Of a stretch of 64,000 nt of DNA, positions 49,468-57,275 are shown one piece after another. The notes beneath the pieces were generated by a model that was given only the letters and a program-made list of their open reading frames with translations, did no database searches and was not told where the DNA came from. Source of the stretch: Niabella soli DSM 19437. Lineage in GTDB: Bacteria > Bacteroidota > Bacteroidia > Chitinophagales > Chitinophagaceae. Position 1 is the stretch's first letter; each line of letters begins with the position of its first letter. The stretch spans positions 4,092,001 to 4,156,000 of the forward strand of contig NZ_CP007035.1 of NCBI RefSeq assembly GCF_000243115.2, read 5' to 3'. The translations under genes were made by a program, and so were the position numbers.

Positions 49468-49570
49468 TGGTAGCACCTGCTCGACATTAAAAAAAACGTA
49501 TTACTATGTTATTTCACCATCTTTTTATTCAGTCTGTTTGTCAATTCTAAAAACTCCAGAAACGCATATT

Positions 49571-50052
49571 ATAATAACCCGCCATCCATTTTATTAAATA
49601 CCCACGGGCATGTTGATTGCAAAGGATAGTATTGCCGGAACGATTTATAAGCCGGGCCCGCCCGGATAAACCGGTCGGACGGGCCTGTGGCTCTCTGGTT
49701 CTGCTTACGCACAGGTTAACAAGGAACTGAAGTCCCTTGTTAACCTATTAAACCGAGGCTACGCCTCTTGTATGTTCGTGGGTTGGGTGAGTTCTGATCC
49801 GGTACAATGACATTCCTTGCGCCACGGAAAGTCAGGGGCTTGTTCATCAGCTCTTCAATCCGGAATTTATTCCGGATTGAAGAGCTGAGCCGAGAATTAA
49901 GTACCATCGGCACGCCCCATTTGAATTTGAAAATAATGCCGGGCTGCAGGAACCCTGCCTCTTTTCTCAATTGTCTGCCACCATGCCCAATTGATAGCAA
50001 TGGGAGCGGGACGCCTAAGCTTATTATGATAATTTTGATGCCGGTTCATTAT
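49571..50052 (+). repeat. structured dispersed element, copy A
   Basis: A 482-bp element related to 56752-57190. Left end ATAATAACCCGCCATC and right end GATGCCGGTTCATTAT are imperfect inverted repeats (13/16). In order it holds stem-loops at 49681-49693, 49714-49745 (11-bp stem), 49755-49767 (GAGGCTACGCCTC), 49829-49841, 49848-49887 (perfect 19-bp arms) and 49901-49913. It covers most of the gap after GH2; 49468-49570 shows nothing else. The right end touches the stop codon of the oxidoreductase gene. A MITE-like mobile element or structured RNA are the main options. Confidence 0.8.
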
Positions 50053-50642
50053 TAATTTAAAACGGAAAAGCGCTTTTCCAGTTGGATCAGCCATTGTTTT
50101 CTTTTCTTATCAGAAGTGGATTTTACCATGCTTAAGTTGATCCACTTCCTGTTTTTATACCCCATTTTCCAAAAGGTACCGGTAATGACGGCTTTGCGGA
50201 TGGCATTTCCGAAAACGAGCCGGTATAATAAGCCGGGCGTATTCATGGTAGTAATCACCGTAACGCTTTTTATTTTTTTGAAAAGCGGAAGCATCCGGTA
50301 GCCGCCTGCACTATATTCATAAGCCACTCCCGGGAAAATGACTTTGTCAATAAACCCTTTTGTCAAGGCAGGCATCAGCTCCCACCATATCGGAAAGATA
50401 AAGATCAGATGATCTGCCTGGTCCAGCCTTTTTTTGTATCCGATGACCTGGGAGTCAACAGGCTGCCGCTGTTTAAATGCCCGAAGGTCGTCTGCCGTCA
50501 TAACAGGGTTAAACCCTTCCTTATCCAGGTGGATCAGGTCGGTTGTGCATTGGGCGCGGGCCAGTCCTTTTATAACTGCTTTCAGAACGGCGTTGCAATA
50601 ACTGCCTTCATAAGGGTGGTTGAAAATAATGGCTGCGTGCAT
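50052..50642 (-). CDS. NAD(P)H-dependent oxidoreductase, flavodoxin-like fold
   Basis: The 196-residue protein has the KefF/MdaB-type flavodoxin-2 pattern: AAIIFNHPYEGSYCNAVLK at the start, a central FPIWWELMPALTKGFIDKV FMN-binding segment and VITTMNTPG. Such enzymes reduce quinones or other electrophiles with NAD(P)H. It lies 74 bp after the Crp/Fnr gene on the same strand and may be its target. The TAA stop codon coincides with the end of element A. Confidence 0.88.
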   Translation of the reverse strand: MHAAIIFNHPYEGSYCNAVLKAVIKGLARAQCTTDLIHLDKEGFNPVMTADDLRAFKQRQPVDSQVIGYKKRLDQADHLIFIFPIWWELMPALTKGFIDKVIFPGVAYEYSAGGYRMLPLFKKIKSVTVITTMNTPGLLYRLVFGNAIRKAVITGTFWKMGYKNRKWINLSMVKSTSDKKRKQWLIQLEKRFSVLN

Positions 50643-56610: not shown

Positions 56611-56682
56611 AGTGGAACAAAAATAAATGGTTTTACTTGCAAACCGGGTTTTCAGGTATTAGGATATTCCCGGGTTCTCACA

Positions 56683-56746
56683 GATTGCTCAGATTTACAC
56701 AGATTTTTGAAAGCCCCCGCTGCGTCGTTGCTCCGTTGCGTCGCTG
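56683..56746. repeat. 64-bp direct repeat, left copy
   Basis: Begins ATTGCTCAGATTTACACAGA and ends TTGCGTCGCTGC. It matches 57212-57275 with 61 of 64 bases and stands a few bases before element B. A looser match extends about 6 bp further out (CTCACA). Confidence 0.9.
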
Positions 56747-56751
56747 CTGCT

Positions 56752-57190
56752 AATAATAAACCGGTGTCAATTTTATTAAAATACTTGTGATGCTGATTGA
56801 CGGATGGGGTATCGCTGCAGGATCAACTTATAGGCCGAGCCGATGGCTCTCTACTTTTAGTTGCGCGCTTTTAACAAGAAACTAAAGTTCCTTGTTAACC
56901 CATTAAACCGAGGCTACGCCTCTTCGACGTTTACTGACTGGAGGTTTCAACTAGTTTAATCATATGCTCAATGTGACAGAAAGCCAGAGGCTTGCGTTCT
57001 TCAGGTTACTTCGGAATTTATTCCGAAGTAATGAGCCAAATATAGGGGATTGAGTGCCATCGGCACGACCCATTTCGAAAGCAACCCCAGGCCTGCTATT
57101 GCTCTTAGCTAACGAGCACCCCACTTGCTTTGATCACAATGAAGGAGAATCCATAAGTCCATTATGATAATTTTGATACCGGTTTATCAT
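56752..57190 (+). repeat. structured dispersed element, copy B
   Basis: A 439-bp element related to 49571-50052. Ends ATAATAAACCCGGTGTCAA and TTGATACCGGTTTATCAT are inverted repeats with two substitutions and one extra base. The same ordered stem-loops occur at 56837-56849 (GAGCC-GAT-GGCTC), 56871-56898, 56910-56922 (GAGGC-TAC-GCCTC), 56981-56993 (AAGCC-AGA-GGCTT), 57006-57031 (12-bp stem) and 57054-57066 (GTGCC-ATC-GGCAC). No open frame is shared with copy A. It fills most of the 56611-57498 gap. Confidence 0.82.
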
Positions 57191-57211
57191 AAAAACTAAG
57201 CAACTCACAAA

Positions 57212-57275
57212 ATTGCTCAGGTTTACACAGATTTTTGAAAGCCCCCGCTGCGCCGTTGCTCCCTTGCGTCGCTGC
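57212..57275. repeat. 64-bp direct repeat, right copy
   Basis: Same orientation as 56683-56746 with three substitutions. It lies 21 bp after the right end of element B. The following 57276-57453 stretch shows no gene and no other clear structure. Confidence 0.9.

Follow-up and report, generated by a model that had tools for sequence, protein, structure and literature searches.

Two complete copies of a MITE, here named A and B, are located between genes in the window, i.e., the whole 64,000-nt stretch of the Niabella soli DSM 19437 genome that was analysed (NZ_CP007035.1, positions 4,092,001 to 4,156,000 of the forward strand; Table 1). Sequence comparison bore out several points of the initial annotation, namely the existence of both copies, the imperfect terminal inverted repeats (TIRs) of each, the stem-loop order short-long-short-short-long-short in both, and the lack of a reading frame common to A and B; the open reading frames are short and unshared, and the MITE has no coding capacity. 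The element had also been considered to be two-copy, which is refuted by 41 own-genome blastn matches to B, 18 of them with both ends (L001-L012, L014, L015, L016, L020, L021, which is copy A, and L023). The family ends are inverted repeats of ~30 bp, and the complete copies are bordered by a 3-bp target duplication of the form TNA, which had the same left and right letters in 15 of 18 copies according to our script and in 16 of 18 once the right boundary of L012, 2 bases off in the script, had been corrected by eye. Another eight copies share 95-97% identity with B, which suggests that the family was amplified recently. The same TIR is also present in relatives from the genus Niabella, and plasmids gave no blastn matches to B; a short TIR pattern was too noisy to be useful as a query (426 and 495 matches compared to 165 and 163 in controls). 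With its TIRs, TNA duplications, non-coding sequence and many copies, the family of A and B is a MITE, and the earlier suggestion of a non-autonomous mobile element is supported by these same features and by one copy that is nested in another MITE (see below). Copy B is further bracketed by a 72-bp direct repeat, 93% identical, at 56677-56747 and 57204-57275, beyond the target duplications, and sequence related to this repeat adjoins copy L004.

The six stem-loops consist of two short-long-short units in mirror order, a feature missed in the initial annotation, so that outer corresponds to outer, long to long and inner to inner hairpin, inverted. Unit I is composed of GAGCC.nnn.GGCTC, then a long hairpin, then GAGGC.nnn.GCCTC, and unit II, which is reversed in the element, of GTGCC.nnn.GGCAC, followed by a long hairpin and then by AAGCC or AGGCC paired with its partner. 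A GC-rich hairpin insertion of ~27 nt is present in or beside a short stem-loop of some copies, the first one in A (window 49649-49685), L023 and L026, and the third one in L010 and L011.

Table 1. Positions in the window of MITE copies A and B, their ends and their hairpin units.
Feature	Position	Strand	Basis
Copy B, complete 436-bp MITE	56754..57189	+	TIRs, TAA duplications; best own-genome blastn match
TAA, left target duplication of B	56751..56753	.	Sequence letters
TAA, right target duplication of B	57190..57192	.	Sequence letters
Left TIR of B	56754..56782	+	80% complementary over 30 nt with right end
Right TIR of B	57161..57189	-	Inverted-repeat pairing with left end
Unit I of B	56829..56928	+	95.8 bits, model R1 (B's sequence part of model)
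Unit I of B, hairpins	short 56837-56849, long 56871-56898, short 56910-56922	+	
Unit II of B, reversed	56975..57074	-	99.5 bits, model R2 (B's sequence part of model)
Unit II of B, hairpins	short 56981-56993, long 57006-57031, short 57054-57066	-	
Copy A, complete 480-bp MITE	49572..50051	+	TIRs; TTA duplications at 49569-49571 and 50052-50054
Unit I of A	49673..49773	+	75.7 bits, R1 built without A
Unit I of A, hairpins	short 49681-49693 (wobble), long 49713-49746, short 49755-49767	+	
Unit II of A, reversed	49823..49921	-	67.7 bits, R2 built without A
Unit II of A, hairpins	short 49829-49841 (wobble), long 49847-49888, short 49901-49913 (mismatch)	-	

The units are not confined to the MITE. 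A Y1/HUH transposase gene of the same genome (G000:C1:4492661-4493119) is flanked by them on both sides: the upstream side has four unit II matches and a single unit I in reverse, the downstream side two unit II matches and likewise a single unit I in reverse. Relatives of this gene in three other species are flanked by the same units, and in three orthologues, as in the own genome, the unit II match begins 4-13 nt beyond the protein match. When models of unit I (R1) and unit II (R2) were run on 17 Niabella genomes, with a ceiling of 150 scored candidates in any one genome, each model matched 11 of the 17; R1 and R2 gave, respectively, 57 and 48 matches in the own genome, 88 and 76 in G015, 92 and 47 in G010, 55 and 40 in G005, and 21 and 21 in G011, with 7 or fewer (R1) or 12 or fewer (R2) in six genomes and none in six for either model, and since each model matches the other's unit at ~50 bits, these counts overlap and must not be summed. 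All four genomes with an orthologue at least 75% identical (the own genome, G005, G015, and G004) carry units, and so do 7 of the 13 Niabella genomes without a close orthologue. The G004 orthologue is in two overlapping pieces and apparently frame-broken, and this genome has one R2 and two R1 matches; among the matches listed, unit I at 4272589-4272688 and unit II at 4271987-4272083 flank the orthologue, and R1 scoring the unit II there at 48.9 bits would account for the third match. Genome G010 has many units and a best transposase match of only 45% identity, which disfavours a strict dependence of the units on the transposase. In G015, extended tandem arrays of both units were observed at G015:C1:939900-949300 and 966300-968700 (L204, L205), near the Y1 gene.

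The 153-aa protein encoded by the own Y1 gene passes the IS200/IS605 model NCBIfam NF033573 (76 bits, cut-off 55) and remains below the cut-off of the REP-associated model (30.6 bits, cut-off 80). Among proteins of solved structure, it is closest to ISHp608-type transposases. In the available text of a 2018 survey of Y1 transposases, subclass 1.2 of TnpA_Y1 has the motifs DH[IV]H, WQ and Y---Q--HH as well as a C-terminal domain and a place in the tree of its own, and Table 1 of that survey has 'no' under REP for this subclass (PMC6006769). The own transposase carries DHMH and YxxxQxxxH, the last of which departs from the motif. Motifs were counted in 71 of the 88 loci described below (17 were dropped as not full-length or with fewer than two hairpins, here as in the Mantel analysis), and WQ and YxxxQ were found in all 71, YxxxQxxHH in 70, DHxH in 66, and NHxH in 5. 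Judged by its motifs, the own Y1 enzyme fits subclass 1.2.

Short hairpins of this kind are also enriched beside such genes across Bacteroidota. Our sample comprised the 88 best-matching loci (30 from the genus, 29 from the order, and 29 from the phylum), in which hairpins with a 3-nt loop and a perfect 5-bp stem containing three or more G or C, hereafter mini-hairpins, were counted within 600 bp on each side of the gene. The genus, order and phylum groups contained 156, 139, and 129 mini-hairpins, compared to 12.2, 8.4, and 7.5 in shuffled sequence, giving 424 vs. ~28 overall, and loops of 2, 4, 5 or 6 nt gave 10-67 hairpins per group. The number exceeded all 50 of the locus's own shuffles at 65 of the 88 loci and did not do so at 23, and 3 of the 88 loci had no mini-hairpin at all. 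The commonest spacing was 45-54 nt. Among 84 full-length genes (4 of the 88 loci were dropped), a hairpin lies no more than 90 nt from the gene downstream in 46, upstream in 38, and on both sides in 21, and when read outwards, a TC foot together with a T tail was present in 23 of the 46 downstream and 20 of the 38 upstream hairpins. The mini-hairpins are thus in inverted orientation around the gene, which is clear from foot and tail and weak from the loop letters alone (46 up and 55 down vs. 60 up and 43 down).

These observations have to be weighed against the explanation that the mini-hairpins are ordinary repeats of gene-poor places, unrelated to the enzyme. Repeats do gather between genes, the three loci without any mini-hairpin agree with this explanation, and so do units far from a close orthologue, as in G010. 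However, density falls from 3.7-4.4 mini-hairpins per kb near the gene to 0.2-0.8 per kb ~1 kb off, orientation is inverted around the gene, and each gene has its own stems, which track protein relatedness: in the 71 loci, stems were shared by 0-12% of pairs at 25-45% protein identity, by 69% at 60-80%, and by 96% above 80% (Mantel r 0.48 and 0.47; reached by 0 of 2000 permutations). This correlation fits coevolution without proving it, since close relatives share flanks by descent. Moreover, a control IS in G007, 26% identical to the query, had 0, 1, and 0 mini-hairpins in 2 kb at its three copies. We consequently regard an origin as ordinary repeats as improbable. Two class-2-like Y1 genes of the own genome were also inspected, one of which had no mini-hairpins and the other three.

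The initial annotation had proposed that pairing is usually kept where A and B differ. This holds for the long hairpins, which show two-sided changes, whereas the short-stem changes that had been cited are one-sided. Two short stems of A, GGGCC/GGCTC and AAGTC/GGCTT, each contain a G.T wobble (A.C on the opposite strand), and its last short stem, GTACC/GGCAC, contains an A.C mismatch, so that decay explains the short stems of A no less well than selection does. There are additional copies with compensatory changes, whose absence would have refuted the initial annotation, and no frame of a decayed protein-coding transposon that would account for the conserved blocks was seen. In alignments of 11 of 11 unit I and 22 of 23 non-redundant unit II sequences, the long hairpin of unit I had two-sided changes in 9 of 12 pairs (16 cells), with a covariation score reached by 0 of 500 shuffles and a number of pair types reached by 34 of 500; that of unit II had two-sided changes in 4 of 8 pairs (11 cells), with the score reached by 0 of 500, the pair count by 14 of 500, and the pair types by 106 of 500. 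Slid controls were lower than the long stems for both units; kinship of the aligned rows can inflate such counts. The units were picked by their short stems, hence the constancy of these stems in the alignments (A1, A2) is largely a matter of construction and is not evidence.

Covarying long hairpins in copies located between genes would also be expected if the MITE carried a structured RNA, a terminator or a stabiliser, with hairpins kept for transcript folding, and pair counts cannot separate RNA from folded single-stranded DNA. On the other hand, the window contains no Rfam match at gathering scores, the units are tied to the gene of a single-strand DNA transposase, on both sides and in inverted orientation, and the short stems of A hold A.C mismatches on one or the other strand. 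The reading as a structured RNA family is accordingly unsupported and in our view quite improbable, and an RNA role is not needed to explain anything we found.

Units of this type recur in other MITEs. In G010, unit I is present within a different TIR MITE (TIR GAAGCTGTTTAAA), and among 20 copies of this MITE a TIR pair was detected by script in 15, with an equal 3-bp duplication in 8 of these 15; two of the TIR pairs (L198, L200) belong to shortened copies. Copy L007 of the B-type family is nested in another TIR MITE, of a type of ~260 bp, and the joined flanks of L007 have nearly full-length matches of 75-82% identity at five loci of the own genome and at three of G016. In an alignment of six of these eight, the sequence at the junction is variable and contains a small gap; what is demonstrated is therefore that the host MITE has relatives lacking the interruption, rather than an empty site exact to the base. 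This ~260-bp type also includes pieces of 39-76 nt that resemble, at 75-82% identity, the flanks of another subclass 1.2 gene of the own genome (L104, G000:C1:1063865-1064314). The B-type family, the G010 MITE and the host of L007 thus represent three combinations of two unit sets and two TIR families.

An autonomous parent of the A and B family was sought in several ways. The one DDE family searched in the own genome, PF01609, was absent; a 135-base MITE query in nine genomes gave MITE copies and fragments among the matches listed; and when genome contigs were scanned for exact TIRs in search of a parent sharing these ends, 31 stretches emerged, of which 19 had paired TIRs and measured 136-441 bp, the other 12 being unpaired. 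The IS1031 group of the IS5 family generates a 3-bp TNA target duplication, and as duplications of this type are present here, the MITE is possibly of IS5/IS1031 type. It resembles bacterial MITEs in its TIRs, short target duplication, absence of coding capacity and many copies, and differs from them in that its cargo is a pair of REP-like units and in that our searches yielded no parent IS. A composite MITE carrying a minisatellite has reportedly been found in Porphyromonas gingivalis (PMC4596501). In G014 (L050, L062-L068) there are many MITEs of 131-136 bp that share these TIRs and contain two different hairpins; in some copies a hairpin is interrupted by other sequence, and some G014 contigs end within such a MITE because of an insertion of this kind.

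Elements of IS200/IS605 have end hairpins on one strand and are not known to have direct target duplications or TIRs. That the Y1 enzyme by itself mobilises the complete MITE, as a miniature IS200/IS605-like element with incidental terminal repeats and TNA, is very improbable, since although its units are those of the Y1 gene, it has direct 3-bp duplications and ~30-bp TIRs, the same TIRs bound the G014 MITEs with other contents, and no family TIR (up to 6 mismatches) was found at the 18 Y1-gene loci scanned.

We favour, with a probability of roughly 0.78, the interpretation that A and B are non-autonomous TIR MITEs carrying a BIME-like pair of REPtron-like units of a subclass 1.2 Y1 enzyme. 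The MITEs would be moved by a putative TIR transposase that duplicates 3 bp at TNA, and inside each of them unit I forward and unit II reversed would form the BIME-like pair. The chromosomal Y1 enzyme most likely binds the mini-hairpins in single-stranded DNA, presumably with a choice of strand, and nicks nearby, and the units probably spread and multiplied in tandem via this enzyme and, within active MITEs, were probably copied further by hitchhiking. TnpA_REP enzymes recognise the hairpin together with a 5' tetranucleotide, according to the available text of a paper on these enzymes (PMC8266576), and one would analogously expect the TC foot to belong to the guide. Because the short stems are imperfect in some copies, A among them, MITE-borne units may be passive cargo. 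A wider proposal, which we put forward tentatively and at somewhat less than even odds, is that subclass 1.2 enzymes run a previously undescribed class of REPtrons throughout the phylum, each reading its own mini-hairpins of 5-bp stem, 3-nt loop and TC-type foot, and that the units ride double-strand TIR MITEs, so that two unrelated systems would meet on one element.

The closest known systems are the REPtrons, in which REPs or BIMEs accompany a TnpA_REP (RAYT) gene. As far as the available text of the sources goes (PMC8266576, PMC6006769), both have short palindromes with a 5' foot, in inverse pairs and in tandem, that flank a low-copy Y1 gene and are dispersed; here, likewise, the units flank the Y1 gene and recur elsewhere in the genome. 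REPs are bound and cut by their enzyme, and the present units are putative substrates of theirs. In contrast to the GTAG or GTGG foot of REPs, TC before and T after the hairpin are commonest here, the enriched geometry is a perfect 5-bp stem with a 3-nt loop rather than a basal stem of 7-20 nt, the enzyme is of subclass 1.2, and the units are also found inside TIR MITEs. TIRtrons (TIRYT) similarly have Y1 genes between inverted repeats, which also occur as dispersed families; in the available description (PMC3733652) long TIRs flank the Y1 gene, whereas here the TIRs border the MITE and were absent from the Y1 loci scanned. IS200/IS605 elements share a related Y1/HUH transposase and hairpins near the ends, but the present hairpins are inverted around the gene instead of lying at the ends on one strand, genes of one and the same genome are very unlike each other, and TIRs and target duplications are present in the carrier.

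MITEs, REPs and Y1 enzymes are already known. As far as our literature searches go, mostly at the level of titles and listings, no prior description of these mini-hairpins was found, and the mini-hairpin units beside subclass 1.2 genes, as well as their pairing inside MITEs, are new. According to its available text, the search in the 2018 survey required a foot of GTAG or GTGG and a basal stem of 7-20 nt (PMC6006769), which would leave these mini-hairpins out; that survey thus seems to have missed a class of REP-like repeats, and very short hairpins would in general escape searches demanding long stems and a GTAG foot. The mini-hairpins are a candidate substrate for a transposase subclass recorded in that survey as having none, and coevolution of REP and enzyme becomes testable through swaps of 5-bp stems between paralogues. 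In addition, units of a single-strand system are repeatedly carried by double-strand MITEs, by which REP-like sequences could possibly spread without their own enzyme. At L161, six GCTCC.TAC mini-hairpins are located upstream of the Y1 gene, exactly 25 nt apart.
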